The translations under genes and the position numbers were made by a program. A stretch of DNA of 64,000 bases from Gelidibacter pelagius (GTDB lineage Bacteria; Bacteroidota; Bacteroidia; Flavobacteriales; Flavobacteriaceae): positions 62,001-126,000 of the forward strand of contig NZ_JAGEVG010000005.1 of NCBI RefSeq assembly GCF_017581925.1, read 5' to 3'. The notes beneath the pieces were generated by a model that saw only the letters and a program-made list of their open reading frames with translations, had not been told where the DNA came from and did no database searches. This document shows positions 40,041 through 64,000 of the stretch, in pieces (position 1 is the first letter of the stretch; the number at the start of each line of letters is the position of its first letter).

Positions 40041-41897
40041 TTATTCTATAAAAATAATCTCACTTCGCTCAGAAATCCCATTTTCATTGAAGGTTTCTAC
40101 TTGTAAATAATACGATTGGTCTGTGGTCAAGGCGCGCAATTCATAATCAGGATGGTCGTACATCATAGCATTAAGATTAAGTTTATCTTTTTCAATGCCC
40201 CAATAAATCACATATCCCGTGGCATCTTCAACAGCATCCCAAGTTAAATTGGCATTACGTCTATCCTTTTGTCTGGTCACTTTAAAATTGGAAGGTGTTT
40301 GAGGTTTGGCTTCTTTCCCTTTTCCGAAAATCCGTAACTCGGATATTGCCAAATACTTATTGGTGCAGAACACGTGGTTATAACGGATATAACGAGCCTC
40401 AACCGAATTTTTAAGTTCGATATAGGCATGTGGGATATCCTTTGTGTTTTTTGAATAATCCACAACGACTTCCCAATTTTGTCCATCCAAAGAAGATTCG
40501 ATGACGAATTGCTGTTTGATATCGTCTGGTCTTCCAAAAATCACACTGTTAAAATCCTGAAAATTAATTTGGAGAGCGCTCACATCCATCGGTTTTAATA
40601 AATCCATCTCAATATAAATGGAATCATTGTTGCTTTCTGAAACCCAATAACTTCGGATCTCTTCATCATTGATCCTGTTGATATTGAAATCCTTAATTTG
40701 TTCCTGCATATAACCATCTTCACTTTCATCGACCACATTGATTTCCTTTTCTACCAAAGGTGAATTAGTCTTGACGGGTTTTTTATAGGACAATAACATC
40801 CAGCCTGTAAAACGTTCTTTATGGTTTTGCACCTTTGTATCAGGAAGGTAGTGCGGGTAATCGCCATAAGCGGTATTGACATACATTTGGCCATTCTCTT
40901 CAAATCCTGCCGGGTACATTCCCAAACGTCTTTCAAATTTAAAATTCACGGAGATGGCCATGGTTGAATAATGCCAAAAATTGCCATTGTTGTCTTTGAC
41001 CGTGCTACCGTGACCCGAGCCTTTCAAAAAACCGCCCGGTTTATATGAAATAGGATTATAGGGCGCATATTCAAAAGGTCCAAGCGGATTTTTACTGGTA
41101 TAGACTCCATCGGCATAAACGTTCCATTGCGTTCCAGGTGCGCCGTATTCGAGATAATAGGTGCCGTTATGTTTTACCATCCACGGTCCTTCAATAAAGG
41201 GTTTTAAATCAGATCTATGATCCTGTCCAAAACGCTCCCATCCATGTTTCTCTGGATTGAGATTGAACAAATCAATTTGTTCCCCCAATGGAATATAATA
41301 GTTTTCAGGATCTAACTCAATGCCTCTAATCGGCCATTTGTTGGAGGATTCTTCATACAGATATACCTTTCCATCATCATCCACAAAAAGATCAGGATCT
41401 TGGGTACCGTGTGGCATATTGATTACTGCGTAATTGGTTTTCCAATCGCCCAGTTCAGGATTGTCAGTTTCAATAACTGCACCTCTACCAGATGGATCTC
41501 CCAATACGATCACCTTACCATCCCTGACTGCAGCGGCCGGTGCATTGGAGCCATTGAAATACCAACTTTGGGGTTTTATAAATTTCCAATTGCTCATATC
41601 GTCAGAAGCCCAATAGCCATGGGAACGTGTAACGAACATATAAAAACGTCCTTTGAAATTCACAACGGCAGGATCCGCTCCAGAACGATAGGATACATTA
41701 TTTCTCGCACGATAATGCGACATATAGGAATAGTCAATATCTATAGGATTACAATAAGTCGTGAAATTATTTTTCGAGTTTTCGACTGTATTCTCGGTCT
41801 GAGTTTGCTCCTTAGTCGTTTTATCATCTGGGCTTTCCTTACAAGCCGTTAGAGCGACCATCGAAAAGCATATACTGAATGTTTTAAATATATTCAT
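40041..41897 (-). CDS. GH43-like lipoprotein with F5/8-type C and fibronectin-III domains
   Basis: A 618-residue lipoprotein (lipobox C19, MVALTAC). The five-bladed propeller (about 50-370) shows the GH43-clan acidic triad candidates: GADPAVV, TQDPDLFVDDDG and FIEGPWMVKH. It is followed by a discoidin-like F5/8-type C domain (about 410-530; ARYIRYN) and a fibronectin-III domain (about 535-618). Such enzymes remove arabinose, xylose, galactose or related residues; the exact activity cannot be read here. It is the last gene of the long second PUL, 12 bases after the sulfatase, and 126 bases before the sensor gene. Confidence 0.78.
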   Translation of the reverse strand: MNIFKTFSICFSMVALTACKESPDDKTTKEQTQTENTVENSKNNFTTYCNPIDIDYSYMSHYRARNNVSYRSGADPAVVNFKGRFYMFVTRSHGYWASDDMSNWKFIKPQSWYFNGSNAPAAAVRDGKVIVLGDPSGRGAVIETDNPELGDWKTNYAVINMPHGTQDPDLFVDDDGKVYLYEESSNKWPIRGIELDPENYYIPLGEQIDLFNLNPEKHGWERFGQDHRSDLKPFIEGPWMVKHNGTYYLEYGAPGTQWNVYADGVYTSKNPLGPFEYAPYNPISYKPGGFLKGSGHGSTVKDNNGNFWHYSTMAISVNFKFERRLGMYPAGFEENGQMYVNTAYGDYPHYLPDTKVQNHKERFTGWMLLSYKKPVKTNSPLVEKEINVVDESEDGYMQEQIKDFNINRINDEEIRSYWVSESNNDSIYIEMDLLKPMDVSALQINFQDFNSVIFGRPDDIKQQFVIESSLDGQNWEVVVDYSKNTKDIPHAYIELKNSVEARYIRYNHVFCTNKYLAISELRIFGKGKEAKPQTPSNFKVTRQKDRRNANLTWDAVEDATGYVIYWGIEKDKLNLNAMMYDHPDYELRALTTDQSYYLQVETFNENGISERSEIIFIE

Positions 41898-41909
41898 GAT
41901 TTATAGATT

Positions 41910-43577
41910 TTAGTGTTTGTAAGCTTCCATAGGTTGCCCTCTCAAACGTTCAAAGTTTTTATAACTGCGTCGGATAGCTTCCGGACTTGCTTTTTCAAAT
42001 TCTTTATCCGTTACCAAATATTTCTCTTGTAAGGTCCCAAGTTTTAAGCGTAACTCCTTTTCGATATCATCATAAGATTCATCATCAATGAGATTGTTCA
42101 TCTCTTTAGGATCCGTCTTCAAATCATAGAGTTCCCACTGATCGATATCATCATATACATGAATTAATTTGTAGCGTTTGGTACGCACCCCATACATTTT
42201 TTTGACCATGTGGAATGCCGGAAAATCGTAATAATGATAATAAATGGCATCTCTAAAATCGTCATCATTGGCCTTTTTTGTCACTAAAGGTCTCAAGGAT
42301 TTTCCTTGCATATCGGCTGGAATCTCTGCTTGGGCAAAATCTAAAAAGGTTTCGGCAAAATCGAGGTTTTGGGTCAAGGCGGTAACTTTGGTGCCTGGTT
42401 TGATGACTGCCGGATATCTCATGACCATAGGCATTGCCAATGATTCTTCATACATAAAACGCTTATCAAACCAGCCTTTTTCACCTAAATAAAAACCTTG
42501 ATCTGTGGTGTAAATAATGATGGTATTTTTCTCCAATCCGTTGGCTTTTAAATAGTCTAAAATTTCGCCAACACCTTCATCAACCGATGCAATGGTTGCT
42601 AAATAATCCTGCAAGTAGCGTTGTGCTTTCCATAGTGCCAGTTCTTCGTCATTATAATTGGCATCATGCATGGCATCATTTTTTGGTCCATAAGCATGAT
42701 CCCAAGCGGCACGTTGCGCTGTGGTCATTCTGTCAAAATCTGTTTTCCATGGATTGTGCGCCAATTCATTACTTCCTTTTGCCACGGTCATTTTCAAGTC
42801 GTGACCTTCATACATGTCTCTATAAATGGTTTGGTATTGTTCTTTAGAGGCGATAGAACCTTCATGATCGGTAAAATACGTATCAGGCAACGGAAATTTG
42901 ACGTCGTCATATTTGTTCAAATGTCTCAGTGCTGGCATCCAATTGCGATGTGGTGCTTTGTGTTGTACCATAAGGAGAAAGGGTTGTTTACCATCTTTTA
43001 CTTGATCCAGATATTTTATCGCATCTTCAGTAATAATATCCGTGGCATAGCCCTCAATCCTTGTGGTATCCACCCTTTGGGTGGTTTCATTTAAAGCGAT
43101 AAAATCCGGATTGTAATAATTGCCTTGATCCGTTAAAATATTCCAATGGTCAAACCCTTGCGGATTGCCGTGCAGATGCCATTTTCCGATCAGTGCTGTA
43201 TTGTATCCTACTTCTTGCAACATCTTGGGAAAGGTGGGCTGGTCGCCATCAAATCGATTGCCATTCATTCGAAACCCATTTATGTGACTGTGTTTCCCGG
43301 TGAGGATTACAGCTCGGCTCGGGCCACAGATGGAATTGGTGCAGAAGTTATTCATAAAAATAGCACCTTCGTCCGCGATGCGGTCAATATTGGGTGTTGG
43401 CGCCAATTTGCTAATGGGATGACCATAGGCACTAATGGCTTGGGTAGCATGATCATCTGCCATAATATAGATAATGTTAGGTCTTTGTTCCGGTTGCGTT
43501 TCAACTACAACTTCCGGTTTGGTCTTACACGATAGTAAAGAGACCATTATCAACAGATACCATGCTAAATTTTTCAC
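41910..43577 (-). CDS. Sulfatase lipoprotein (formylglycine-dependent, S1 family)
   Basis: A 555-residue lipoprotein, lipobox C17 (VSLLSCK). The type I sulfatase signature is intact: SICGPSRAVILTGKHSH, with formylglycine cysteine C84 and R88. Metal-binding D41/D42 (IMADDHA) and downstream TDQGFYLGEKG are also visible. It removes sulfate esters from a carbohydrate; the subfamily cannot be told by eye. It starts with GTG at 43577, overlapping the esterase stop (GTGA), so the two are coupled. Maturation needs a formylglycine-generating enzyme (or anSME) that is not in this window. Its presence suggests a sulfated substrate. Confidence 0.93.
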   Translation of the reverse strand: MKNLAWYLLIMVSLLSCKTKPEVVVETQPEQRPNIIYIMADDHATQAISAYGHPISKLAPTPNIDRIADEGAIFMNNFCTNSICGPSRAVILTGKHSHINGFRMNGNRFDGDQPTFPKMLQEVGYNTALIGKWHLHGNPQGFDHWNILTDQGNYYNPDFIALNETTQRVDTTRIEGYATDIITEDAIKYLDQVKDGKQPFLLMVQHKAPHRNWMPALRHLNKYDDVKFPLPDTYFTDHEGSIASKEQYQTIYRDMYEGHDLKMTVAKGSNELAHNPWKTDFDRMTTAQRAAWDHAYGPKNDAMHDANYNDEELALWKAQRYLQDYLATIASVDEGVGEILDYLKANGLEKNTIIIYTTDQGFYLGEKGWFDKRFMYEESLAMPMVMRYPAVIKPGTKVTALTQNLDFAETFLDFAQAEIPADMQGKSLRPLVTKKANDDDFRDAIYYHYYDFPAFHMVKKMYGVRTKRYKLIHVYDDIDQWELYDLKTDPKEMNNLIDDESYDDIEKELRLKLGTLQEKYLVTDKEFEKASPEAIRRSYKNFERLRGQPMEAYKH

Positions 43578-44461
43578 GTTTTCTTAATTATTCTTACGGT
43601 TTGTATGATTTCTCTTTTAAAAATAGTCTTATTGAAAAAATCAAAGACTTCATCCAATTGATCAAAAGGGATGGATGACAGTTCATGTTTGCCTCCAATC
43701 ACTTTATAGAAATAATAGGGCATTTCCAATTCTACCAATCTATCTACTATGGTTGACGAGCCATCCAATATGATGTAACCTTTCTTTTCCGGTTTACAAA
43801 GATGATGTGCAGCACTCGCAAAAGGCACTAAATTATCCGCAGTGCCATGAAAAAACACCGACGGCAGGGCATTATCTTTAGACAAATAATCAGCATTGAC
43901 CATGGCTCCCGCCAAAGAAAAAACACCAGCAAATTTGATATTCTCATAGTTTTTTAAATTATCGATAAAATATTCCCGCATATACACGGCATTGAGCATC
44001 CCTTCTGCACCTGCACTACTCCCGCCTGCAATAATTTTTGTGGTGTCAGCTCCCAATACATCTTTATTCTCATAAATAAATTTTGCAGCGTCCAGAAAGT
44101 CGATCGCTGCATTCTTAAAGGTGACCAGCTTATCGGCTCTGGGACAATCGCAACCAAAACCGGTCACTTGGCCTTTTCGGGTCAATCGATAGGAAATTGA
44201 AATACCTAAATAACCTTTCTCTGCCGCCAATTCCGCTAATTTCACTTCACTAGGGTAACTCCTACTACCGCCAACAAATCCGCCCCCATGCATCCACAAC
44301 AATACTGGAACAGAATCATTTTTTTTCATTTTTTTGGGCGTATAAACATCCATTTTTAAGGTGTCCAATCCTTTAATCGCATAGGTATAAGTAGTAACAT
44401 TTGCTTGGGAAAAACTCAAACTGAAACTACATAGGAATAGAACTAAAGTTATTTTTTTCAT
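43574..44461 (-). CDS. Alpha/beta-hydrolase esterase (carboxylesterase/BD-FAE-like)
   Basis: A 295-residue secreted enzyme with a signal peptide (ending SLSFSQA). It has the oxyanion motif WMHGGGFVGGS, nucleophile elbow GSSAG with S149, an acid in HGTADNLVPF, and a catalytic His in GGKHEL. The HGG motif is typical of carbohydrate esterases and lipases of the HSL/BD-FAE type. It probably removes acetyl or aroyl groups from a glycan. It lies three bases after the GH2 gene and overlaps the sulfatase start by four. Substrate is inferred from context only. Confidence 0.85.
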   Translation of the reverse strand: MKKITLVLFLCSFSLSFSQANVTTYTYAIKGLDTLKMDVYTPKKMKKNDSVPVLLWMHGGGFVGGSRSYPSEVKLAELAAEKGYLGISISYRLTRKGQVTGFGCDCPRADKLVTFKNAAIDFLDAAKFIYENKDVLGADTTKIIAGGSSAGAEGMLNAVYMREYFIDNLKNYENIKFAGVFSLAGAMVNADYLSKDNALPSVFFHGTADNLVPFASAAHHLCKPEKKGYIILDGSSTIVDRLVELEMPYYFYKVIGGKHELSSIPFDQLDEVFDFFNKTIFKREIIQTVRIIKKT

Positions 44462-44464
44462 TTG

Positions 44465-47095
44465 TTAATCTTTCTTTTCAATCAAAACGCCACTAAGGAC
44501 TGTTTTTCCTTCAATGGGCTTGAGATTTATGCTTAAGCCTTCGTTGTTTCTAATGTTAACCATACTTGTTAAGGTAACGCCGTATTTATCCGGAAATGTA
44601 TTTGCCAAATCAAAACGACTTTCAACCAAAATATCGTTTAAAAACACATCAAATTTACGTTGTTTTTTTGTGTCACTATTGGCTAATTCTTTTTCGGCGG
44701 TTAAATTAAAAACCATCTCAATGTTACTTTTTATTTGTGGTTCTACAAAAAATAAAGTGATTTGGTATTGTCCATCAGGAACATCGACTTTATATCCCGT
44801 ACAGCCTTCAAGCATCGTTTGAAAAACTCCTTCTTTTTCTGTGTTTTTGATATTATTGGGAATACCTTGATTCTTGTCTTTGGTAATGTTGTATGGTGTT
44901 CCGTCGAAATGCCCGTATAGATTTTCAGAATATTGTCTGTCTGGAACGAAGGTGACGTTGTTCTCCTGATCATAAAAGCTGAAATGTGATCCAAGGTTGA
45001 TTCCAAATCTTTTGAAATGCGCTGTTTTCAAGTTATCAGATTTGAATACTTGAAGTGTTTTGATTTCTTCTTGTGAATTAGCTACCACTTTCAATTCATT
45101 TTCACCATTTATAAAAGGAATATCCGCTGTAGCCAATCCGTCACTAAAAGTAACAGCATCAATCAATTCGCCATTCAAATAAACTTCTGCCTTCTTTTCA
45201 TTTGAAAAAATCGATACGGTCCGTTTGTCTTCATTAATTAAATTCAAAGGGTGTTCTGGATTTAAAGCAATGTGTAGAAGAGGCTCCTTAGTGTTCAAAA
45301 CAGCTTTGTACCAAAAATAAACATCCTTTGGCTCCCGATTGTATTGCACCAATCCTTTTTGATTGAGATGCGGAATGGTTTCGCCCCGAAATTCTGAACC
45401 GAAGTCGGCAAAATTCCAAGCAGTCATACCAACAACAAAGTCGCGCGCCATAACTTGATCATAATAGCTTTTATGGAGGATCAATTGGTATTCTTGGGTA
45501 TAATCGTACTTTTTTGGGGTGGTGCTCGATATATTCACATCTGCTCCAGGCCCATATTCTGACACCATGATGGAACGGTTTGGAAAACGTTTGTGTTGGT
45601 CATCCAAAAATATGCCCAAATCAGGAATGGTGTCGTTATACCATCCAAAGTAGAGATTCCATCCAATCAGCATGGACAAATCGGCAATTTTAGTGTCGTT
45701 ATAGACTTCATTGAAGTGCAATGCCATCACCGTCAATCGGTTGGGCGCCATTTTTCTTGTGAAATCCTCCAACTGTTTCGCAAGTTCATAACTGTAAACT
45801 TTAGCATCTTCCTTTTCTAGGTCAGTAGATTTTCTATCGAAAACCAAGCGTAGAAAAATCTCGTTCATATAACCAAACATTACCACTGAAGGAAAATTAT
45901 AGTACTGTTTGAGATGTTCTTCCTGCATGGTCATGCTGGTTTCAAAAAATTCAGGTGTGTTGGTCACTTTATTGACAACTGGGATTTCTGACCATACCAG
46001 AAGTCCAAGTTCATCGCATAATTTATAGAGTTCCTGAGCTTGTGGATAATGTGCAAAACGTATCACGTTGGCACCCATGTTTTTTATCAGATGAATGTCC
46101 TTTTCCTGAAGCTGCATCGGTACGGCACTTCCGTAGCCATTATAATCCTGATGACGGTTAACTCCAATTATTTTGTAAGATTCTCCGTTAAGGAACAAAC
46201 CTTTATTTGGATCAACACTTACCCAACGGAACGCAATATTCGATGACTTCTCATCTAAAATAGTTCCATGCTTATCTTTTAACAAAATCTGCAAATGATA
46301 AAGATTTGGATGTTCTGGCGACCATAACTTTGGATTATGGATATCAGAAAAAAGAATATTAAGGTTTTCCGAGCTGTTGGCGTTGATTTTTATTTTTTTG
46401 GTTTCCATACGGATGATTTTTCCATCGGCATCCGAAATACTTACTTCGAGTTGATTTGTAGCCGATTTCACATCAAAATTATCCAATAGAACAGATACCT
46501 CAACACTGGCTTTTTCTTTGGAAACATTAGGGTAATCCACATAAAAACCTTCAGATGCAAAATCATTTAAAGTGAGATGTTGCTTTGGCAATGCAATCCA
46601 TTCCACATCTCTATAAATACCGCCATAAATTGTAAAATCGATGTCCAAGGGTGGGATATTTAAGTTAAGGGAATTGTCAACCTTGACTTCGATAAGATTA
46701 TAAGAACCAAATTTTATGAACTCTGTAATATTAAAATTAAAGGCCGTATAACCACCTTTATGATTGCCAGCAAAACTGCCATTCACATAGACATTGGTTT
46801 CTTGATTGACCCCTTTAAATTTGAGGTAGTGTACTAAATCTTCTTTTTCTGAGGGAACATAGACATGTTTTTGATAAAAACCCGAACCTCTAAAATATCC
46901 ACTTTCGTCATCAAAAGCATCATCTTTATTCCAGGTGTGCGGAATATTGACCGTTTGCCAATTGGTTTTGGTGGTATCTAAGGTGAATTGCCACCCGGAA
47001 TTAATTATGGTTTTTTGGGCAGTCAATTGATAAGAAAAAGCCACACAAAACAGGATCAGCAAATTTCTTATATGATATGTTTTATGTGGCTTCAT
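44465..47095 (-). CDS. GH2 glycoside hydrolase with C-terminal malectin domain
   Basis: An 876-residue enzyme with a signal peptide (ending QLTAQK). Domains are the GH2 sugar-binding jelly roll (about 30-190), an Ig-like domain (190-290), and a TIM barrel (about 290-600) with acid/base E412 (FGYMNEI) and nucleophile E513 (MVSEYGPGAD). An inter-domain region and a malectin-like domain (about 700-870) follow. GH2 members include beta-galactosidase, beta-glucuronidase and beta-mannosidase. The malectin module may bind di-glucose or another sugar. It is in the second half of the PUL with esterase, sulfatase and GH43-like genes, so it fits cleavage of a decorated side chain. Confidence 0.9.
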   Translation of the reverse strand: MKPHKTYHIRNLLILFCVAFSYQLTAQKTIINSGWQFTLDTTKTNWQTVNIPHTWNKDDAFDDESGYFRGSGFYQKHVYVPSEKEDLVHYLKFKGVNQETNVYVNGSFAGNHKGGYTAFNFNITEFIKFGSYNLIEVKVDNSLNLNIPPLDIDFTIYGGIYRDVEWIALPKQHLTLNDFASEGFYVDYPNVSKEKASVEVSVLLDNFDVKSATNQLEVSISDADGKIIRMETKKIKINANSSENLNILFSDIHNPKLWSPEHPNLYHLQILLKDKHGTILDEKSSNIAFRWVSVDPNKGLFLNGESYKIIGVNRHQDYNGYGSAVPMQLQEKDIHLIKNMGANVIRFAHYPQAQELYKLCDELGLLVWSEIPVVNKVTNTPEFFETSMTMQEEHLKQYYNFPSVVMFGYMNEIFLRLVFDRKSTDLEKEDAKVYSYELAKQLEDFTRKMAPNRLTVMALHFNEVYNDTKIADLSMLIGWNLYFGWYNDTIPDLGIFLDDQHKRFPNRSIMVSEYGPGADVNISSTTPKKYDYTQEYQLILHKSYYDQVMARDFVVGMTAWNFADFGSEFRGETIPHLNQKGLVQYNREPKDVYFWYKAVLNTKEPLLHIALNPEHPLNLINEDKRTVSIFSNEKKAEVYLNGELIDAVTFSDGLATADIPFINGENELKVVANSQEEIKTLQVFKSDNLKTAHFKRFGINLGSHFSFYDQENNVTFVPDRQYSENLYGHFDGTPYNITKDKNQGIPNNIKNTEKEGVFQTMLEGCTGYKVDVPDGQYQITLFFVEPQIKSNIEMVFNLTAEKELANSDTKKQRKFDVFLNDILVESRFDLANTFPDKYGVTLTSMVNIRNNEGLSINLKPIEGKTVLSGVLIEKKD

Positions 47096-47121: not shown

Positions 47122-48042
47122 TTATTTTAAGACTACTCTTTTGCTCATTTTATTACCACCTGCGTTAATTTCCAAGATATAAAGTCCAGCAGCAATTGTA
47201 TCGTCTTCTCCCGAAGTTCTATTCCAAGTATGGTTAAATACACCAGCAGAAACCTCATCATTGAAAATAGACGTAACCATTTTGCCGGCAACATCATACA
47301 TGGCTATGGAAACTTTTGCAGTGTTATTCATTTTAAAACGAATTGAAAACGACTCAGCCACAGGATTTGGAGAGATCGTGACATTGGCCTCCAATGAAAA
47401 ATCAGAAGTTGAAAGCTCTGTAGTTTCCGTCATTTTAATGACGCCAATATAACAAAAGCCTGCGCCATTAGTATTTTCAGGTCCTTTTTGGAGTGCTAAT
47501 ACAATGTTTCCAGAGGCGTCAGGTTGAATGTTTGCAATAGTGGTCGTATTTGCTGTATTGTTTCCTCCATCCAAATAAGCTATTCCAGTATTGGCACCTG
47601 TTGCGGTATATTGAGCTTGACGATTATCCGATACACTCATTCGCGAAGCAAAAATTTCAAATTGATAATACATGGAGGTATTCATACCTGAAAAGGTAAA
47701 AGCTCCTGTTTCGTTACTTCCATCCTGGACATAATAGGAGTCAATCGTTGCCGTAGCAGGAAAACCAATACTCGGATCGGGAGAGGTCGTTCCATTGTTG
47801 TTGGCGGCTACAAAAGAATCCGTAACACCAAAAGAATAGGTTGAAGCCACACCTTGATCATTGATAAAGTTGGTGATGTCTGTAGTCATAGCACTTGCCA
47901 AATGATTGTTCCAGTTGCCCTCTGTCCGGTTAAGTTCCGAATTGTTGTGGTTCAAATCAAAAAGGAAAACCTGTTGTGATTGTACCGTCGTTGATAATAT
48001 AGCAATACATAATATTGCTAATGTTTGCGTAATTTTTTTCAT
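47122..48042 (-). CDS. T9SS-tagged protein made of the orphan module shared with the SGNH hydrolase
   Basis: A 306-residue secreted protein. After the signal peptide (ending TVQSQQ) it has a ~195-residue beta-sandwich-like module (about 22-215) and a T9SS type A sorting domain (about 225-306; SPNPVAESFSIRF, AAGLYILEI). The module is clearly related to residues 21-210 of the SGNH hydrolase encoded 11 bases upstream, sharing GNWNN, NTNGTTSP-like, TDxF and SVSDNR-type blocks. No catalytic residues are recognised. It is likely a carbohydrate-binding or anchoring protein exported to the surface by the Por system. The role is inferred. Confidence 0.8.
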   Translation of the reverse strand: MKKITQTLAILCIAILSTTVQSQQVFLFDLNHNNSELNRTEGNWNNHLASAMTTDITNFINDQGVASTYSFGVTDSFVAANNNGTTSPDPSIGFPATATIDSYYVQDGSNETGAFTFSGMNTSMYYQFEIFASRMSVSDNRQAQYTATGANTGIAYLDGGNNTANTTTIANIQPDASGNIVLALQKGPENTNGAGFCYIGVIKMTETTELSTSDFSLEANVTISPNPVAESFSIRFKMNNTAKVSIAMYDVAGKMVTSIFNDEVSAGVFNHTWNRTSGEDDTIAAGLYILEINAGGNKMSKRVVLK

Positions 48043-52195: not shown

Positions 52196-52245
52196 GACCT
52201 CAAAGGTTTTCCTCCTTCGGCGGACAGGTTAAAACCTGTGAGGTC
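52196..52245. repeat. Inverted repeat (REP-like) between the two GH3 genes
   Basis: Fifteen-base arms (gacctcaaaggtttt and aaaacctgtgaggtc) pair at 14 of 15 positions around a 20-base loop that itself contains small hairpins (tccttcggcgga; acaggttaaaacctgt). This resembles dispersed REP-type palindromes of Bacteroidota. It could act as a terminator or mRNA-stability element between the two GH3 genes. Confidence 0.65.
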
Positions 52246-52256
52246 TCTGGTTCACC

Positions 52257-55409: not shown

Positions 55410-56777
55410 TTAATAGGTGAATCCAAGTTTATCAAGTCCGTTTTTCACATCGTCATTCTGCATAAATAGATTCCAAAGTAAACCTGTTCTATGATTTTCA
55501 ATCATGATGATCTGTGGACCTTGATCAATGGCCAAATAAGCTTCAGCAACCCAAAAATCATATTCCGGGCTAAAGGCATCGTAAAATCCAGCCTTTCCTA
55601 GTAATTTGTTCTTTTTCTGATAAAAATAATGCATGGCACGCAAGGATTCCGTAGGCGTATAAGCGATCGAGCTAATGGCAGCCGTGGGTGAAATAACACC
55701 TTTATCGTTAACCGGACTGTGTGCTGCATAGCCTAAAGATCCATCTGTGTTTCTCGAATAACTTGCCGATAAGCCCCAACAATCCTTTCCATATCCTTCA
55801 AAATTTTGCGGATTTTGAACCGCATATTGATAATTGATTTTTGCGTGATTGGTCACCACATCTTTATAATTGGCATATTGGTCCGCTAAATTCATCGGGT
55901 TCAAACCCAAAAATGAATAATGGCTAAAGAACATCGGACCTCCAAATTGCGGTGAACCCGCATGTTTTAGAACCAATGGCAATCCATATTGCACATTAGA
56001 AGACACCATTGTGCCATTACCTGCCCAACCTTGTGTATAAACATCAGGAGAAATGGAGTAATCAGGTGAGGCTGCGGCCAACACATAAGTAATCAAGCTT
56101 TCATTATAACCCTGAATTTTTAAATTCATGGAAAAATCGTAATTGGGGCTCCAATGCCAGTATAATACGTTTTCATTTTTTGTGTACCAATCCCATTCGA
56201 CACCTTTCCAAAGTACATCTGCTTTGTTGGCCAATTCCACCTCTGCTGGAGAGCCGTTTTTAAAATACTCTTTGATGCAGATCAGACCTTGAACCACAAA
56301 AGAAGTTTCAACCAAATCGCCCCCGTTGTCCTGGTTGCTAAATGGGATCACGCTGCCATTGTTTCCGTTGATCCAGTGTGACCATGCGCCGTGAAAACGG
56401 TCAGCGTTTTCTAAAAATGTCAAAAGTGTTTGTAATCTTGTCACGGCTTCAGCTCTTGTCACATAGCCTCTTTCAATACCTACTATAATCGCCATCAAGC
56501 CAAAGCCAGTTCCTCCTGAAGTGACCACATGTTGATCTTGCGAAGGATTACTTGGAATATAACGTTCTTTTGCCGCCTTAGAATTGGGCTCTGCAAAATC
56601 CCAAAAGTATTTGAAGGTTTCGCGTTGCACCAAATCCATCATTTCCACATCAGTCAATGGATCAATGAGCACTGGGCCATCATCAACAGGATCTGGATTA
56701 AAAGGCTCAGATGGCGTGCTTTTGGAACAGGCCAAGGTTATCAATGCAATAAAGAGTAAGCCGTATATTTTTTTCAT
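55410..56777 (-). CDS. GH144-like endo-beta-1,2-glucanase family lipoprotein (paralogue B)
   Basis: A 455-residue lipoprotein of the 'glucoamylase-like' (Glycoamylase) family, to which GH144 endo-beta-1,2-glucanases belong. I place the start at ATG 56777, giving MKKIYGLLFIALITLACSK with lipobox C17. An upstream ATG at 56846 would add 23 residues that overlap the neighbouring gene and have no signal-peptide character. Conserved family blocks are TFKYFWDFAEPNS, SGGTGFGLMA, DRFHGAWSHWING, DNGGDLVETSFVVQG and YWHWSPNYDF. It is a tandem paralogue of the gene upstream (16 bases apart). Endo-cleavage of beta-1,2-glucan is the characterised family activity; it is inferred here. Confidence 0.85.
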   Translation of the reverse strand: MKKIYGLLFIALITLACSKSTPSEPFNPDPVDDGPVLIDPLTDVEMMDLVQRETFKYFWDFAEPNSKAAKERYIPSNPSQDQHVVTSGGTGFGLMAIIVGIERGYVTRAEAVTRLQTLLTFLENADRFHGAWSHWINGNNGSVIPFSNQDNGGDLVETSFVVQGLICIKEYFKNGSPAEVELANKADVLWKGVEWDWYTKNENVLYWHWSPNYDFSMNLKIQGYNESLITYVLAAASPDYSISPDVYTQGWAGNGTMVSSNVQYGLPLVLKHAGSPQFGGPMFFSHYSFLGLNPMNLADQYANYKDVVTNHAKINYQYAVQNPQNFEGYGKDCWGLSASYSRNTDGSLGYAAHSPVNDKGVISPTAAISSIAYTPTESLRAMHYFYQKKNKLLGKAGFYDAFSPEYDFWVAEAYLAIDQGPQIIMIENHRTGLLWNLFMQNDDVKNGLDKLGFTY

Positions 56778-56793
56778 GAAATCGTAGTTTATT

Positions 56794-58161
56794 TTATTTT
56801 TTATAGGTGAATCCGAGTTTATCCAATCCACGTTGCACATCTTCATTTTGCATAAACAAATCCCAGAGCATTCCTGATCGATAATTTTCGATCATTATGG
56901 GAATCGGCCCTTGATCAATGGCCAAATAGCGCTGAACCGACCAATTTTCATCGAAACTAAAGGCATCATAAGGTCCGTATTTACCGATAAGGGAATCTTG
57001 TTTTTCATATAGATAATGCAGCATTTTTACACTCTCCTCAGGGGTATATGGGATCGAGGCTAAGGCTGCGGTAGGTGAAATAACACCAACATCGTTTCCT
57101 GGTCGATGTGCTTTATAACCACTTACTGAGTAACTGGAAGACAAACCCCATAAACTATCGCCATAGCCTTTAAAGCCTTTTGGATTTTCGACGGCATAAG
57201 CATGGTGAATTTTAGCTTGGTTTTGGACCAGTTTCCAATAATCTGCATATTGATCTTTAAGCTCTTTTGGATTTAAGCCCAAATAGGAATAATGTCCCCA
57301 AAACATCGGTCCTATATCTGCATCAGCATTTTCATAATAGTTGAGAACTAATGGAATACCATACAAAGAATCCTTAGAAACAATGTTGCCATTCAAAGAC
57401 CAACCCTGGTCATAAACTTCTTTAGAAATTGAATGCGTCGGTGAGGCTGCTGCGAGCACATACATGACCAAACATTCATTATAGCCACCAATAGGGAAAT
57501 TCATGTCCCATTCATAATTCGGTGACCAATGCCAATACAAAACGTTTTCGCCTTTAGTGTACCAGTCCCATTCTACTTCTCTCCATAGTTGGTCAATTTT
57601 ATGGGCGAGTTCTTTTTCTTTAATGTTACCATCTTTAAAATATTCTTTAACGGTCAACATGCCTTGAATCAAAAATGCCGTTTCTACCAAGTCACCACCA
57701 TTATCTTTTTTACTGAACGGCACCACTTTTCCAGTTTCGCCATTGAGCCAATGTGGCCACGCGCCGTGGAAACGATCGGCTTTCTCGAGAAAATCTACCA
57801 TTTTGATAAATCTGTCAACAGCCTCCTCTCTTGAAATATAGCCGTTTTTAATCCCCACCAAAAGCACCATAAATCCAAATCCAGAACCTCCTGTGGTCAC
57901 CGTGTTTTTGGGACTGGTAGGATAAACGCCATCGATATGGATGCGCTCTCTTGCCAAGCCGGAATTAGGCTCGGCACCTTCCCAAAAATAGTTGAAGGTT
58001 TGCTTTTGAAGGGTGTCCAACAATGGGTCATCAGCGAAAATTACAGCCGATTTGATTAAAGAAGCCCTATCATTTTGTTTTTTTCCGGAAGTATTGCAGC
58101 TCAAAAAAAGCACAATTAATGACATCCATAGTATAAAAAGTCTGGTAAAAGGTTTAAACAT
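56794..58161 (-). CDS. GH144-like endo-beta-1,2-glucanase family lipoprotein (paralogue A)
   Basis: A 455-residue lipoprotein (lipobox C22, LFLSC) with the same blocks as its neighbour: TFNYFWEGAEPNS, TGGSGFGFMV, DRFHGAWPHWLNG, DNGGDLVETAFLIQG and YWHWSPNYEWDM. The two proteins have the same length from their lipoprotein starts and clearly arose by duplication, but have diverged well at the protein level. The lipid anchor suggests surface or periplasmic location. It is preceded by a 301-base spacer with several hairpins, so it may be separately regulated from susC-susD-LamG upstream. Confidence 0.86.
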   Translation of the reverse strand: MFKPFTRLFILWMSLIVLFLSCNTSGKKQNDRASLIKSAVIFADDPLLDTLQKQTFNYFWEGAEPNSGLARERIHIDGVYPTSPKNTVTTGGSGFGFMVLLVGIKNGYISREEAVDRFIKMVDFLEKADRFHGAWPHWLNGETGKVVPFSKKDNGGDLVETAFLIQGMLTVKEYFKDGNIKEKELAHKIDQLWREVEWDWYTKGENVLYWHWSPNYEWDMNFPIGGYNECLVMYVLAAASPTHSISKEVYDQGWSLNGNIVSKDSLYGIPLVLNYYENADADIGPMFWGHYSYLGLNPKELKDQYADYWKLVQNQAKIHHAYAVENPKGFKGYGDSLWGLSSSYSVSGYKAHRPGNDVGVISPTAALASIPYTPEESVKMLHYLYEKQDSLIGKYGPYDAFSFDENWSVQRYLAIDQGPIPIMIENYRSGMLWDLFMQNEDVQRGLDKLGFTYKK

Positions 58162-58462
58162 AAAATGGTCAATTAAAAAATGGTCAATTAAAATGCTTAT
58201 AGGGACTTCTCAACAGGAGCACCCAATGCGTTTCGCTTTTTTGTTTTGCCTGCCTGTTGACAGACTGGAATTAGGATGCCGCTTACCTCGTGACTTTAAA
58301 GAGCGGGATTGGTTCAACCATCAAAACTCAATGCGCCTTCGGCTTTTGAGTTTTGGGTTTCACTAATAAATTTTAGCTGCACTCCGTTGCCAGAATGCAG
58401 CCAAAATGAAATTAGACTAACTCAATAAAAAATCTAAATCCCCGTCAAGGACGGATTGTTTA
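58162..58462. other. 301-base spacer with repeats and hairpins; no gene seen
   Basis: The spacer between the LamG lipoprotein and the GH144-like gene holds a direct repeat of aatggtcaatta (period 15, about 58164-58192) and an inverted repeat tcaacagg / cctgttga (58210-58217 with 58253-58260). It also has a perfect 10-bp hairpin caaaactcaa / ttgagttttg (58322-58331 with 58346-58355) and a small ccgtc-aag-gacgg hairpin near 58443-58455. A long plus-strand open frame here has no signal, no family match by eye and extends into the GH144-like gene in antisense; I do not call it. Confidence 0.6.
58322..58355. terminator. Hairpin upstream of the GH144-like genes
   Basis: A perfect ten-base stem (caaaactcaa / ttgagttttg) with a 14-base loop containing cttcgg lies between the LamG gene and the first GH144-like gene. 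It could attenuate transcription from the SusC/SusD/LamG block into the enzyme genes. A T-run on the minus strand is weak. Confidence 0.45.
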
Positions 58463-60187
58463 TTAGAACATTAGCGATTGGATTTCTGTTTGTGAAAGTG
58501 CTTTGTCAAAAATTCTCAATTCATCCATTACGCTTAGGTCAGATTTGTGGTTCCATCCTGTAAATCGAGGCGCACCCGACATCACAGAAAGGACATCACA
58601 ATCAGTCCAATCCACACCGGAAAATTCACCTTGTTTGACTACCTCTCCATTAACATACACTACACATTCTGTAGAAGAAATAGTAAAAGCCAAATGCACC
58701 CAACCATTATTTGCTGTAGGGTCTATGGTAGCTGCGGCGCCGCCATCAAACCAAACATCTGCATCTCCATTGCCCACATTAAGTTTAAAAATTTGGTTGG
58801 TGGCTCCACCTTCTCGGAAGAAACGGAATCCACTGGTTCGATCATTTTGAACATTAGGGAAATTGGCATTTTCTGTATCTGGAGGTCCTATTACCAAAAT
58901 ACCGGCACGATCTGGCGTTGCATTTATTTTATACCAAAATGCAGCACTGAATTGATTATTCAATAAACCAGTTGTCGGGAATGTTAAATAAGAATCCTCA
59001 GCCCCTTTGTAAGCGTTTGAGCCGGCATATCCTTCTCCTGCAAAACCAGGGGTTCCAACCATGGTAGCTTCAATATCTCTAACATTATCGGTATAACTTC
59101 CATTAAAGTTTACGTGCATTCTTTGGCTGCCTTGAGCTATCATGCTTGTAATTTCGCTTTGTGATAAGGTGGTGTCAAATAATCTTAACTCATCCATCAA
59201 ACTGGAATCAGACTTATGATTCCAATAACTGAAGGTTGGTCCACCAGCTCCAATTACCAATTGCGAGGCACCTGTCCAATCAATTGGAGCACTTAATGTG
59301 CCTGTATTGACTTCCATGCCGTTAAGATAGATTTTTGTTTCCGTAGCTGAAATTGTAAATGCCACATGCACCCAATCTCCAGCAGCTACATCAATTTCGC
59401 CACCATCATTCCAACTATCACCACTCCCCGTACCAACATTTAATTTAATACGCTGTTTTTCAGCGCCTCCTTCACGGAATAATCTAAGCCCTTGGTTACG
59501 ATCATCTGCATTGGCACCTATGGTTAAAATACCCGCACGATCTGGTAAAGGATTGACTTTATACCAAAATGCTCCACTAAAATTATCACCTAAAGCCAAA
59601 GCGCTGGTTGGAAAGGTCAAATAGTTATCAGTACCTGCCTTATACGAATTGGAGCCGGCATAAGCAGTTCCACCAAACCCCGGGCTTCCAACTTCTTCTG
59701 CGGCGATAACGCTTACAAGCTCCGTAAAGTCGCCATCAAACGGCATATAGAATTGCTCTCCTGCAAATATTGGTGTATACGGAGGCGATTTTGTAAAGTT
59801 AGATGTTGCGGTAGTCACATTCCCTGCTAAATCTGTTGCCGATACTGTCAGCACATGATCTCCTGTAGTAATATTGTCTTGCATAAATTCATAACTGGCA
59901 ATTCTATAATCTATAAAACTGTCATACGAAGCGATTTCAGCACCGTTCAACATCACGGAGATCGAACCGATTTCTATATCATCTTCAACTCTAAATTGAA
60001 CCATTGTGGAAGTGACCAGATCCGGAACCTGAATTTCAAGTCCGTTGGCCGGTCTCATAATGGTGACCATTGGTGCACCAGCATCCGGTCCTGGATCAAC
60101 TTGGGAAATTGGATCAATGCCTTCGTAACAGGACACCATTAAGAGCAAGGAGAATATTCCGAAAATTAGTCTGTTAATTTTTTTCAT
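58463..60187 (-). CDS. Surface lipoprotein with Ig-like and two LamG domains
   Basis: A 574-residue lipoprotein (lipobox C20, LLLMVSC). An Ig-like domain (about 42-133; GDHVLTVSATDLAGNVTTA) is followed by two LamG/concanavalin-like domains (about 140-350 and 355-574). Both share blocks such as YLTFPT, FSGAFWYKVN / FSAAFWYKIN, DRAGIL and WNHKSD...MDELRLFD. It follows susD by 28 bases, the usual place for a surface glycan-binding protein. LamG modules bind glycans, so this is probably the glycan-capture lipoprotein of the second PUL. No catalytic residues are expected. Confidence 0.87.
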   Translation of the reverse strand: MKKINRLIFGIFSLLLMVSCYEGIDPISQVDPGPDAGAPMVTIMRPANGLEIQVPDLVTSTMVQFRVEDDIEIGSISVMLNGAEIASYDSFIDYRIASYEFMQDNITTGDHVLTVSATDLAGNVTTATSNFTKSPPYTPIFAGEQFYMPFDGDFTELVSVIAAEEVGSPGFGGTAYAGSNSYKAGTDNYLTFPTSALALGDNFSGAFWYKVNPLPDRAGILTIGANADDRNQGLRLFREGGAEKQRIKLNVGTGSGDSWNDGGEIDVAAGDWVHVAFTISATETKIYLNGMEVNTGTLSAPIDWTGASQLVIGAGGPTFSYWNHKSDSSLMDELRLFDTTLSQSEITSMIAQGSQRMHVNFNGSYTDNVRDIEATMVGTPGFAGEGYAGSNAYKGAEDSYLTFPTTGLLNNQFSAAFWYKINATPDRAGILVIGPPDTENANFPNVQNDRTSGFRFFREGGATNQIFKLNVGNGDADVWFDGGAAATIDPTANNGWVHLAFTISSTECVVYVNGEVVKQGEFSGVDWTDCDVLSVMSGAPRFTGWNHKSDLSVMDELRIFDKALSQTEIQSLMF

Positions 60188-60215: not shown

Positions 60216-61751
60216 TTATTCTACACCCAATGGCAATAAGTCCACCTGCGTTTGAGGATAAGGAAGTAGTGCCTTGTCTTCTGAAAATGTTCTACCATCG
60301 TAGCTCAACTCGGCATAATTTTTCAATCGTATCAGATCAAAATAACGGATGCCCCATTCCATGCCCAATTCAGCGAACTTTTCGTCCATAACATCAGCAT
60401 GGGTAACCCCGGTCAAGTCTCCAAGCCCCGCCCTGTTTCGTACCAAATTAACCGCTTGGTCTGCGGTCATTCCGTTACCATTGGCACCTTTTGTTAAGGC
60501 TTCTGCATACATCAATAAGATTTCCGCATAGCGAATGACAATCATATTTTTGCCTGAACCATAGCTATTACGTCCTTCTGTCAACTGCTGGGATGGTAAA
60601 TAGTGTTTTCCACTCGAAAATTTTGCTCTGTTAAAATCATTGATGACATCGCCATCTGGGGTGGTGTTTGAAATCCAAGAAGGTAATGTTGCATATGCTG
60701 CATCTAATTTAATTTCATCAATCCCTCTATTGGTAAAAAGTACACTGGTTTGCAAACGCACCTTTTCATTTCTATCTAACATGAACTTAATAAACTTAAA
60801 ACTCGGCTCATAAAATCCCCATCCTGAACTTGCTCCTGCTCGTGCTGGCGTCCAATTTTCAGGACCAAATGGTGCATACAAATGATTATTCACTGCTCCC
60901 GTTGCGGATCCATAATCTGAATATTGGAATTCAAATAAATTTTCGTTACTCAATTCACCTGGTTTCTTAAATAATTGGTAGAAATCATCGAACAACATGA
61001 ATTTATTAGAGTTGATTATGGCACCTGTGGCATTCGCCACTTCTTGGTAATTTTCAAGCTCTAAATTTGCCAAGGCTTTTACAGCAAGGGCCGTATACTT
61101 TGTAACACCCCCCGGAACGTCAGTTCGCTGGTTTGGTCGCATGTCTGGTAAATCAGGTATGGCTTCATCCATCAGATCAGATACATATTTCATGATCTCT
61201 GCTTTTGTAGCGACACCGTTTGCCAAATCATCCGTAACATCAGATTTGGTAATAATAAACACACTGCCCCATACACGAGCCATTTGAAGATGTGTCCATC
61301 CACTCAACACTTTGGTTTCCGCCATAAACTGATCGGCTCTTTCATAGGCACTTTCTGGTGCAAAATCCTTGTAGCTCTGCACAGTCTCTCTGGCGTTGTT
61401 AATGTCTAAAATATCACTGTACATATTGGTCCATAGGGAATTATACATCCAATAACCTTTATCATAATTGAACATATCCGTATCAGCGAACGGCTGTTGA
61501 TCACCCAAACCTCCGGCATTGACATCATCTCCCCTGACTCCCAACAAAAGTGGATCTTCCCACCCTCTCGAGTAGATTTGGGCATACGCACCGATCAATG
61601 GCATAATCATATCACTTGTTTTGGTATAATCTAAATCACCAGTTCCCAACTGGCCATCTTGTTCTTGGAGTTTGTCTTCACAGGATGTAAAGCACAAACC
61701 TGCAACTAGCACATAGACTAGTGGGTTTAATAGTTGTTTGAAATTCTTCAT
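60216..61751 (-). CDS. SusD-family outer-membrane lipoprotein (second PUL)
   Basis: A 511-residue lipoprotein starting at ATG 61751 (MKNFKQLLNPLVYVLVAGLCFTSC, lipobox C24). An ATG at 61760 adds three residues and cannot be excluded. SusD signatures are visible: WTHLQMARVWGSV, YTALAVKALANLELENYQEV, and RYAEILLMYAEALTKG near the C-terminus. The motif EKFAELGMEWGIRYFDLIRLKN is also present. It acts as the lid and binding partner of SusC for import of larger oligosaccharides. The susC stop lies 5-14 bases upstream, as expected for a coupled pair. Confidence 0.95.
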   Translation of the reverse strand: MKNFKQLLNPLVYVLVAGLCFTSCEDKLQEQDGQLGTGDLDYTKTSDMIMPLIGAYAQIYSRGWEDPLLLGVRGDDVNAGGLGDQQPFADTDMFNYDKGYWMYNSLWTNMYSDILDINNARETVQSYKDFAPESAYERADQFMAETKVLSGWTHLQMARVWGSVFIITKSDVTDDLANGVATKAEIMKYVSDLMDEAIPDLPDMRPNQRTDVPGGVTKYTALAVKALANLELENYQEVANATGAIINSNKFMLFDDFYQLFKKPGELSNENLFEFQYSDYGSATGAVNNHLYAPFGPENWTPARAGASSGWGFYEPSFKFIKFMLDRNEKVRLQTSVLFTNRGIDEIKLDAAYATLPSWISNTTPDGDVINDFNRAKFSSGKHYLPSQQLTEGRNSYGSGKNMIVIRYAEILLMYAEALTKGANGNGMTADQAVNLVRNRAGLGDLTGVTHADVMDEKFAELGMEWGIRYFDLIRLKNYAELSYDGRTFSEDKALLPYPQTQVDLLPLGVE

Positions 61752-61765
61752 ATCGTGCATATTTT

Positions 61766-64000
61766 TTAGATTTTTATATTGATTCCCATCGTATAAACTG
61801 CTGGAACAGGATAGGTTTGTCTGTCAATCCCATCTTGAACTTCTGGATCAAAGCCATTATACTTAAAGAAAGTAAATGGACGCTCTGCTGTAAAGGTCAA
61901 TCGTGTTTCAGGCATTTTTTTACCTAGTAATGAACCAGGTTTAACGGTATACGACAATTGAATATTCTGAATCCTGAAGTAGGAACCATCTTCAATAAAA
62001 TAAGTACTCAATTTTTGGTTCCAGCCTTTTCTTAATCCGGCTGAAGATGGGTAAGAATTGGAAGTTCCCTCACCATGCCAACGATTGACGGCCAAATCAG
62101 CATCGATATTAGTACCACTGGTGAAAATAACTTCACCTCTTTTACGGTTCAAAATTTTGTTTCCCGATTGTCCTGAAAAATTCACAGAAAAATCGAAACC
62201 TTTATAACCTACACCCAAATTACCTCCATACATAAAGTTCGGTAGATAAGAACCTAAAATGACGCGATCATCAGCGTCTAAAACACCATCACCATTGACA
62301 TCTTTATATCTCAAATCGCCTGGCACTAAATTATTGGCCATTGCTATAGGGTCATTTTGAACCTCTTCATTTGTTTGATATACCCCAAGTACTTCGTAAC
62401 CAAAAAAGGATCGAATTGGATCTCCAACGCGCGTACGCTGACGAAATTCAAAAGATCCGCCATCAATATATTCCTGGTTATCAGCCAATGTAATCACCTC
62501 ATTCTTAAGAGTTGACACATTGGCGCCAATATTAATTCTCCAATTATCATTCAAATTTTGGTTATAATCTAGACTCACCTCCAAACCTTGGTTTCTAATT
62601 ACACCGGCATTTTTTCTCACAATTTCGTTTGAAATCGGTTGAATGACAGGTATCACAGCATTATTTGTGGTTCGTATAAAATAATCGGCCTCCAAGCTCA
62701 AACGACTGTTGAACATTCTTGCAGAAATACCAAAGTCTTTTTCTTCTGTAACCTCCCATTCTAAGTTGGAGAAATTACTTGTAGAGACAATTCCACTTAC
62801 AGGCTGATCGCCAATATCTGTTTGGACGATGCTTACCGTTCTGGTGCCAGAACTTCTACCAAGACTTCCATTTCCAAGCTCACCATAACTGGCTCTTAAT
62901 TTCAAGAAATCAAAAACACCATTGTCTTGCATAAAATTTTCTTCAGTTAATACCCAACCCAATCCTACAGCATAAGTGTTCAACCAATTGTTGGCGGTAA
63001 ATTTTGAATCCCCTTCCCTTCGAAAGGTGGCGTTGATAAGATAGCGATCCATATAGCTATATTCCGCTCTACCGAAATACGACACCCCATATATACGTCC
63101 ACCATTATCACTAACATTTCCACTAAAGGATTCTTTATCTGCAAAGTCCAAGTACCAAGAACTTTCAAAAGCAATACCCGTTATATCCTCACCCGTAGCG
63201 GAAAGATTATGAACCGCCTCATCTCTATACGATGTACCACCAATTAAAGTTAAATTATGAGCTCCAAAGACATCTTTATAAGTGATAACATTATCCCAAA
63301 TTTGATTGGAATAGGTGGCTTGTGCCTTTCTAATAGACGAAGTCTCTCTTTGCGAATTTTCAGAAATAAAATATGGCAATCTGACGTTACGCTCTTCAAT
63401 AGAAGAATAATCATGATAATAAGACGACTTAATAGACAATTTCTCAGGTACAATAAAATACTCAGCGTAAATATTGGTCAACAATTTTCTAATCTTCAAC
63501 TGATTTTCATTGTATCGCATGGTCGGAAATGGATTTTGGGAACCTCTGTAGCCAATTTTGGTAGCATCAGAATACGCCACAGGGGTTGCTTCCGTATTTA
63601 AGGAATCATACACAGGTAATGTTGGTACCGCAAAATAGGCCTGAAACCAAGCGGCATTTTCTGCATTATATTTGGTGGCATTACTGAATACCATATTGGT
63701 TCCCATTTTAAAACGTTCTGATAACTTAATATCTACATTAGATCTAATGTTAAAGCGCTCGTACTCATTCTTCATATCCATAATACCATCTTGAGAAAAA
63801 TAATTGGCACCTACGGAATAGGTGACATTTTCACCACCCCCATTAACACCAATGCTGTGACTGGAAATAGTGGCAGGACGTAAAATCTCCTTGAACCAAT
63901 CTGTATTCACATTTGGAAGATTTGGATTGACTCTACTCCTTCCAAAACGCTGTATTGCGCTTTGAATATTGTTAATATCCGTTTGTGAACCTGATTCATA
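61766..64000 (-). CDS. SusC/RagA TonB-linked outer-membrane transporter, 5' partial (second PUL)
   Basis: The open frame runs without a stop from 61766 to the window end, so the N-terminal part, with signal peptide, CarboxypepD domain and plug, lies beyond it. About 744 residues of barrel are present. Typical blocks are DWFKEILRPATISSHS, GAEYSYMDRYLINATFRREG-like segments and FLKLRASYGELGNGS, and the protein ends ...TMGINIKI, without a final Phe, which is less usual but known. An apparent GTG at 63910 is internal, not a start. It is the partner of the SusD gene that follows. Confidence 0.93.
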   Translation of the reverse strand, partial: YESGSQTDINNIQSAIQRFGRSRVNPNLPNVNTDWFKEILRPATISSHSIGVNGGGENVTYSVGANYFSQDGIMDMKNEYERFNIRSNVDIKLSERFKMGTNMVFSNATKYNAENAAWFQAYFAVPTLPVYDSLNTEATPVAYSDATKIGYRGSQNPFPTMRYNENQLKIRKLLTNIYAEYFIVPEKLSIKSSYYHDYSSIEERNVRLPYFISENSQRETSSIRKAQATYSNQIWDNVITYKDVFGAHNLTLIGGTSYRDEAVHNLSATGEDITGIAFESSWYLDFADKESFSGNVSDNGGRIYGVSYFGRAEYSYMDRYLINATFRREGDSKFTANNWLNTYAVGLGWVLTEENFMQDNGVFDFLKLRASYGELGNGSLGRSSGTRTVSIVQTDIGDQPVSGIVSTSNFSNLEWEVTEEKDFGISARMFNSRLSLEADYFIRTTNNAVIPVIQPISNEIVRKNAGVIRNQGLEVSLDYNQNLNDNWRINIGANVSTLKNEVITLADNQEYIDGGSFEFRQRTRVGDPIRSFFGYEVLGVYQTNEEVQNDPIAMANNLVPGDLRYKDVNGDGVLDADDRVILGSYLPNFMYGGNLGVGYKGFDFSVNFSGQSGNKILNRKRGEVIFTSGTNIDADLAVNRWHGEGTSNSYPSSAGLRKGWNQKLSTYFIEDGSYFRIQNIQLSYTVKPGSLLGKKMPETRLTFTAERPFTFFKYNGFDPEVQDGIDRQTYPVPAVYTMGINIKI

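Follow-up and report, generated by a model that had tools for sequence, protein, structure and literature searches.

A GH144 polysaccharide utilization locus of Gelidibacter pelagius predicted to act on a substituted, anionic β-1,2-glucan

Described GH144 loci and the Gelidibacter locus

Polysaccharide utilization loci (PULs) of marine Bacteroidetes in which enzymes of glycoside hydrolase family 144 (GH144) are accompanied by a sulfatase were reported by Lapebie et al., 2019 (PMC6499787), who inferred from them a ubiquitous, unknown, sulfated counterpart of terrestrial β-1,2-glucan. A cluster of Maribacter dokdonensis 62-1 holds two GH144 genes, a GH3 gene, susCD and sulfatase genes, and GH144 occurs in all Maribacter and Zobellia studied there (PMC8072126). 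The known bacterial β-1,2-glucans bear succinate, phosphoglycerol, acetyl groups or one α-1,6 link (PMC11842490, section 4). Here we describe a related locus at the end of a 64,000-nucleotide stretch of the Gelidibacter pelagius genome (the window; contig NZ_JAGEVG010000005.1, positions 62,001 to 126,000). Its 14 genes all lie on the minus strand, are transcribed from high to low window coordinates and follow the order SusC, SusD, LamG, GH144a, GH144b, esterase 1, GH3a, GH3b, SGNH-T9SS (type IX secretion system), T9SS module, GH2-malectin, esterase 2, sulfatase and GH43 (Table 1). The combination of SusC, SusD and co-directional enzymes is that of a Bacteroidota PUL.

The gist, that marine GH144 PULs with a sulfatase point to an unknown sulfated polysaccharide, has been in print since 2019. 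The passages of PMC6499787 on these PULs make no mention of the sulfatase subfamily, GH2, GH43, esterase or phosphoesterase, whereas the window locus has a long tail; those of PMC8072126 on the Maribacter cluster mention no GH2, GH43 or esterase, unlike the locus described here. What sequence comparison adds is a single sulfatase ortholog group resembling N-acetylglucosamine (GlcNAc)-6-sulfatases, the identity of PDB entry 9s03, a predicted hexuronidase-type GH2, the esterase-sulfatase-GH43 tail and, in relatives, candidate phosphoesterases and GH97. These features are absent from the passages cited, and part of them may stand elsewhere in the two papers. With moderate confidence, we interpret the locus as one PUL for an anionic, acylated β-1,2-glucan, probably 6-O-sulfated, and not as two merged loci.

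Linkage of the sulfatase and its neighbours to GH144

The family was sampled with 299 genomes, the window's own included. Matches were found in 75 genomes for GH144a (E ≤ 1e-80), 51 for the sulfatase (E ≤ 1e-170), 42 for GH43 (E ≤ 1e-80), 23 for GH2 (E ≤ 1e-170) and 119 for the phosphoesterase of relatives (E ≤ 1e-40). Sulfatase orthologs of at least 60% identity numbered 49 in 48 of the 299 genomes; all 48 also encode GH144, at a distance of no more than 40 kb for 47 of the 49 copies. Of the two remaining copies, one is an additional copy in G150 and the other belongs to G022, where the locus is split over contigs: C40 (7088 bp) carries GH3b-GH2-esterase 2-sulfatase, while C286 has GH43 at its end, with a phosphoesterase adjoining. 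None of the four sulfatase matches at 54–55% identity is near GH144, and three of these four genomes are without any GH144 match. GH43 is linked to GH144 in 31/34 cases at 45% identity or above and in 38/47 at 40% or above. GH2 of at least 56% identity, counted by eye, occurs in 13 genomes, near GH144 on the same contig in 12 and beside the sulfatase in the 13th (G022). Orthologs of the Exo_endo_phos phosphoesterase (at least 60%) share a contig with GH144 in 14 of 15 cases; the 15th stands beside GH43 in G022.

A second sample, in which linkage was counted by eye, covered 242 genomes of the phylum. The sulfatase (at least 60%) was present in seven genomes, each a member of the same family and each with GH144 within 40 kb; six of them were already in the family sample and only G527 was new. 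Among sulfatases of 49–55% identity, 1/26 lay within 40 kb of GH144 (G377, at 33 kb and on the opposite strand), several of the other matches being on a contig different from that of GH144, which leaves their distance undefined. A third set, drawn from named genomes, comprised the best 80 of 412 candidates by sulfatase profile, each with up to 10 kb of DNA on either side. GH144 was found in 61 of these 80 and some other gene of the block in all 80. The set includes a Saprospiraceae metagenome-assembled genome (MAG), Marivirga atlantica, a Bacteroidales MAG (GH144 not within its flanks of up to 10 kb), Moheibacter lacus and Chryseobacterium sp. SC28. The association is therefore not confined to one family.

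We compared 79 GH144 loci from the 75 family genomes and four congeners; absence means absence from the DNA compared, which for 16 genomes was one piece of at most 20 kb. The sulfatase is present in 50 of them. Most of these 50 also contain a SusC-like gene (48), two GH144 genes (47), GH3 (48), LamG (38), esterase 1 (35), GH43 (31) and esterase 2 (28), with Exo_endo_phos (22), GH2 (18), GH97 (8), a metallophosphoesterase (6), SGNH (3) and the T9SS module (2) less frequent. The 29 loci that lack the sulfatase have GH3 in 19 cases, GH43 in eight, esterase 2 in five, Exo_endo_phos in three and GH2 in one. The run GH2-esterase 2-sulfatase-GH43 is contiguous in 13/79 loci, four of them from the window's genus and nine from nine other genera, and esterase 2-sulfatase-GH43 in 17/79. 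Single tail genes are frequently absent; congener G001, for example, has no sulfatase, GH2 or GH3b. In 25/50 loci the sulfatase is preceded by esterase 2 and in 14/50 by a GH3; downstream stand GH43 (18/50), an unlabelled opposite-strand gene (12/50) or a phosphoesterase (7/50). Gene content that varies in this way indicates a core with accessories that come and go rather than two glued blocks.

An earlier note on this DNA had described the block from SusC to GH43, with these domains and without a strand change, and it is as described; its neighbours recur together across genera, beyond chance. The same note had considered a merger of two loci, to be recognized if the halves always stood at separate sites in relatives. 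Gene order shows otherwise: in many genera GH144 is accompanied by the sulfatase, GH43, GH2 and esterase 2. A fusion of two unrelated loci at the seam between GH3b and SGNH could draw on the rarity of SGNH and the T9SS module and on a palindromic repeat in the 101-bp gap between GH3a and GH3b, but the same order without SGNH and the T9SS module is found in other genera, linkage is tight and the gap at the supposed seam is only 31 bp. We regard fusion as close to refuted, and the block is almost certainly one locus. The true juxtaposition is at the far end of the block, where a laminarin-type PUL comes next.

Predicted substrate and enzyme activities

The backbone is very probably β-1,2-glucan. 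Both members of the pair that the earlier note called GH144-like are of GH144 type, far above the PF10091 cut-off of 27 bits, and share 59% (GH144a) and 54% (GH144b) identity with the Chitinophaga endo-β-1,2-glucanase chain 5gzk/5gzh. CpSGL of Chitinophaga pinensis (GH144; 5gzh/5gzk) is characterised, whereas the activities of the window enzymes are predicted. The last glutamates of the motifs DLVE and GYNE are kept in 62/62 type-a and 75/75 type-b proteins; that of GYNE we take to be E211. By residue count we place the DLVE glutamate at E142 of PMC11842490. The true start of GH144b is likely inside the called frame, at MKKIYG. The two GH3 proteins both exceed the cut-off of the BglX model. 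As a side observation, PF10091 also matches, at 72–74 bits, within frames of ∼ 2,900 aa in two congeners (G002:C40:96017-96610 and G003:C10:172456-173052). Cyclic β-1,2-glucan synthases have this arrangement, and the genus may also make cyclic β-1,2-glucans.

The sulfatase orthologs all carry CGPSR (50/50), which agrees with the formylglycine signature C/S-x-P-x-R. For maturation, the formylglycine-generating enzyme (FGE) family PF03781 matches six open frames of the genome (best 236.2 bits), all of them FGE candidates; the anaerobic sulfatase-maturating enzyme (anSME) model TIGR03942 has no match in the genome. PF00884 has five matches in total. Against the PDB, the window sulfatase matched 9s03 best (966.7 bits), followed by 7p24 and 5g2v, and a 12-sequence profile returned 9s03, then 5g2v (an N-acetylglucosamine-6-sulfatase) and 7p24 (a mucin-desulfating sulfatase). 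Entry 9s03, titled 'Putative sulfatase', is the product of a Mariniflexile fucanivorans DSM 18792 gene (L168:10016-11659), identical over 548 residues save for a Cys to Ser exchange at the formylglycine site, and a literature search by its code found no paper on it. This ortholog sits in a locus of the order LamG-GH144-GH144-esterase-GH3-GH43-esterase-sulfatase. The homology to 5g2v, which we take to be BT4656, is full-length, with WFDKRF, GKWHL and HRNW in common. Asp371 and Arg373 are present in 50/50 orthologs and also in 5g2v and 7p24; by alignment position they are the candidate pair for reading O4. The part of PMC10154612 drawn on here assigns recognition of O3 in subfamily S1_11 to a His and that of O4 to an Asp/Arg pair, and describes the N-acetyl region as missing in about half of the members, especially aquatic ones. 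Since O3, O4 and O6 are free in β-1,2-glucan, a gluco-type 6-O-sulfatase would fit.

A tree of 58 sulfatase rows had as outgroup only five rows of sulfatases from elsewhere and, in addition, one divergent row from a GH144 locus. Apart from G253_1, the sulfatases of GH144 loci form one clade (Shimodaira–Hasegawa-like approximate likelihood-ratio test, SH-aLRT, 100); G253_1, itself from a GH144 locus, is a long-branch row of uncertain place that falls inside the clade. The window group differs from the S1_11 GlcNAc-6-sulfatases represented by 5g2v as a separate clade bound to GH144 loci. The neighbourhoods inspected, those of three of the four nearest sulfatases outside the clade, hold GH20 (L224), GH29, GH92 and GH130 (L225) or a SASA esterase (L223); those of L224 and L225 suggest GlcNAc-containing substrates. 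We consider a true sulfate ester fairly probable as the target, and its position at O6 of glucose a tentative assignment.

GH2 carries Arg570, Asn578, Lys580 and Tyr482, each in 19/19 proteins. This corresponds, with loops assigned by motif, to the β-hexuronidase signature of an NxK in loop 8, an upstream Arg and a Tyr in loop 6, as given in the part of a 2025 survey used here (PMC12243196). Its PDB relatives 6ed1, 5uj6, 6d8g and 6d50 are all titled β-glucuronidase, with 526 bits against 6ed1 and 498 bits against 5uj6 over most of GH2. The Bacteroides β-glucuronidases with a malectin domain (6ed1, 5uj6) have the Arg-NxK-Tyr signature in common with it and differ in host and locus. We therefore predict a β-hexuronidase; a uronic acid side group on the glucan is possible, and we put it forward with somewhat more reserve than the O6 position. 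GH43 has its three acidic residues Asp75, Asp167 and Glu236 in 42/42 proteins each. The T9SS module, noted earlier simply as a T9SS module protein, is indeed present and proves to be a stand-alone copy (41%) of the N-terminal 205 residues of the SGNH protein, followed by a T9SS tail. A low-confidence model suggests that both domains may be malectin-like, in which case the protein would be a secreted sugar-binding module. A 306-aa relative (51%) of the SGNH and T9SS module proteins occurs in G022 beyond GH43 and the phosphoesterase (L227:2766-3686).

Gene order, domains, catalytic motifs and co-conservation are observed directly; the substrate and the location and order of the steps we infer as follows. 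The glucan would be bound at the surface by SusD and LamG, the latter probably a surface glycan-binding protein judging by its position. The two GH144 lipoproteins would cleave the backbone endo-wise, while the secreted SGNH esterase would strip acyl groups outside the cell. Oligomers would be imported by SusC, and deacylation could be completed in the periplasm by the two α/β esterases. The S1_11-like sulfatase, once matured to formylglycine, would take the 6-O-sulfate off a non-reducing-end glucose with free O3 and O4, as in a 2-linked glucan. Where present, a β-linked uronic acid would be removed by GH2 and another side sugar by GH43, and the two GH3 enzymes would degrade the bare β-1,2-gluco-oligosaccharides to glucose.

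The main rival takes the substrate for an osmoregulated periplasmic or cyclic β-1,2-glucan of bacteria that bears phosphoglycerol and succinyl or acetyl groups, the S1 protein being a phosphodiesterase or the sulfate incidental; phosphoesterases of relatives would share the work and GH97 would open the α-1,6 link of α-1,6-cyclised forms. Such substituents, and the α-1,6 link, are known on bacterial β-1,2-glucans (PMC11842490, section 4), and Exo_endo_phos is found in 22/50 sulfatase-bearing loci vs 3/29 others, alongside the metallophosphoesterase (6/50) and GH97 (8/50). The window locus itself, however, has no Exo_endo_phos, metallophosphoesterase or GH97, and the genome's best Exo_endo_phos match lies elsewhere (G000:C48, 52%). 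Phosphoesterases for phosphoglycerol, by which a periplasmic-glucan locus would be known, are thus absent among the window locus genes and present in some relatives. Among solved structures, moreover, the S1 protein has its closest named relatives in sugar sulfatases. We judge this explanation unlikely. Slightly less likely still is that the target is another sulfated heteroglycan, with β-1,2-glucose as just one of its linkages and with GH144, GH3, GH2, GH43 and the sulfatase each treating one part. The β-hexuronidase signature of GH2, the presence of GH43 and esterases beside glucan enzymes and the differences in neighbourhood between genera agree with it, but some loci are nearly bare: those of G009 and G234 have SusCD, LamG, two GH144, one GH3, the sulfatase and not much besides, and in that of G025 even GH3 is missing, which fits a plain sulfated glucan.

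Several points weigh against a sulfated β-1,2-glucan as the substrate. The sulfatase is dispensable: 29/79 loci lack it, congener G001 among them (one, G022, has it on another contig), as do 27/75 family GH144 genomes anywhere at 60% identity or above. GH144 is itself absent from 4/9 genomes of the genus. In the phylum sample GH144 occurs in 65/242 genomes, 19 of the same family and 46 of other families, and none of these 46 has the sulfatase at 60% or above. GH2, in 18/50 sulfatase-bearing loci, and SGNH, in 3/50, are accessories, and weaker GH2 matches (36–43%), counted by eye, are near GH144 in 5/10 cases and unlinked in 5/10. With the LacZ4 glucuronidase model GH2 scores 496.5 bits, where the cut-off is 950. 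The WFDKRF stretch also occurs in sulfatases outside the clade and so alone does not fix specificity, and the Asp/Arg dyad is placed by alignment only. According to the part of PMC10154612 consulted, aquatic S1_11 members may use the triad for L-galactose. Literature searches, one term of which was blind to the comma spelling, found no sulfated β-1,2-glucan, nor any biochemistry, expression or glycan structure for such a system. The second alternative of the earlier note, a substituted β-glucan not yet described, remains the better reading in its substitution, and the glycan is undescribed as far as we searched; the inference had already been printed.

Layout, surroundings and implications

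The earlier note rightly began the block with SusC, but the gene runs out of the window; in full it occupies L003:3767-6847 (∼ window 61766-64846) and matches the PF07715 Plug domain with 74.3 bits. Upstream of it, beyond the window, is a 938-aa protein (L003:7011-9827) whose LuxR-type match of 20.3 bits is below the cut-off of 23.5. From this protein through GH43 the successive gaps are 163, 5, 28, 301, -53, 46, -1, 101, 31, 11, 26, 3, -4 and 12 bp, so that gaps within the block range from -53 to +301 bp; 126 bp separate GH43 from the next regulator. The hairpin in the 301-bp gap is a plausible site at which expression of the enzymes could be set apart from that of the binding and transport genes. 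The palindromic element in the gap between GH3a and GH3b (gap 52156-52256), whose arm matches in the window only its own two arms, is perhaps a small repeat element.

Table 1. Features of the PUL and its neighbour in the window.
Feature	Position	Strand	Remarks
SusC-like TonB-dependent transporter, 3' part	61766..64000	-	gene extends to ~64846 beyond window
SusD-like glycan-binding lipoprotein	60216..61760	-	PF07980 85.7 bits
LamG lipoprotein (Laminin_G_3, two stretches)	58463..60187	-	PF13385 150.5 bits
17-pair hairpin in 301-bp LamG-GH144a gap	58370..58407	-	terminator-like or processing site, predicted
GH144 enzyme a, lipoprotein by N-terminus, endo-β-1,2-glucanase type	56794..58161	-	PF10091 252.5 bits; DLVE and GYNE motifs
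GH144 enzyme b, lipoprotein by N-terminus	55410..56846	-	PF10091 254.8 bits
Esterase 1, α/β hydrolase with GLSMGG	54569..55363	-	GLSMGG in 44/45
GH3 β-glucosidase a, BglX type	52257..54569	-	NF011678 949.6 bits, cut-off 666
GH3 β-glucosidase b, BglX type	49921..52155	-	NF011678 813.8 bits, cut-off 666
SGNH (GDSL) hydrolase with T9SS tail, secreted esterase candidate	48054..49889	-	PF13472, PF18962, TIGR04183
T9SS-secreted module protein, tentatively malectin-like sugar-binding sandwich	47122..48042	-	duplicate of SGNH N-terminal domain
GH2 with C-terminal malectin domain, predicted β-hexuronidase	44465..47095	-	Arg570, Asn578, Lys580, Tyr482
Esterase 2, BD-FAE-type α/β hydrolase	43574..44461	-	PF20434 61.8 bits; HGGGF 32/32
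S1 sulfatase, S1_11-like, lipoprotein by N-terminus	41910..43577	-	CGPSR formylglycine site
GH43 with F5/8-type C and fn3 domains	40041..41897	-	PF04616 93.6 bits, PF00754, PF00041
Y_Y_Y regulator with LuxR-like end, first gene of neighbouring laminarin-type PUL, outside locus	37110..39914	-	PF07495 over cut-off; PF00196 23.1 bits, just below cut-off 23.5
Neighbouring SusC-SusD-PKD-GH16-GH3 set, separate laminarin-type PUL	26154..36872	-	substrate inferred from GH16 and GH3

The regulator and the SusC-SusD-PKD-GH16-GH3 set that follow GH43, omitted from the earlier note, probably target laminarin. The start of this neighbour (regulator and SusC) is also found in other Gelidibacter loci and in Subsaxibacter (L148), UBA5544 (L147) and Subsaximicrobium (L165). 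Upstream of the locus (L003:11811-20000) are a PorP/SprF protein and an open frame, rich in repeats and no shorter than 2,387 aa, that is perhaps a T9SS-secreted adhesin.

The host bacterium is probably marine, and the locus suggests that the acidic, sulfate-bearing β-1,2-glucan postulated in 2019 does exist in the sea and serves there as food. A bolder proposal, which we hold to be doubtful at present, is a widespread, not-yet-isolated marine β-1,2-glucan with glucose 6-O-sulfate, acyl esters and, in some forms, a β-linked uronic acid and a GH43-cleaved sugar; for its glucose-6-sulfate a dedicated sulfatase clade would have evolved from the GlcNAc-6-sulfatase group, and 9s03 would be the structure of that enzyme. 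The locus and its relatives make the 2019 prediction specific, with one sulfatase ortholog group of solved structure, a predicted O6 position and a predicted acid side group. If true, this would bring a new specificity to the sulfatases and a new anionic glucan to the carbon cycle of the sea.

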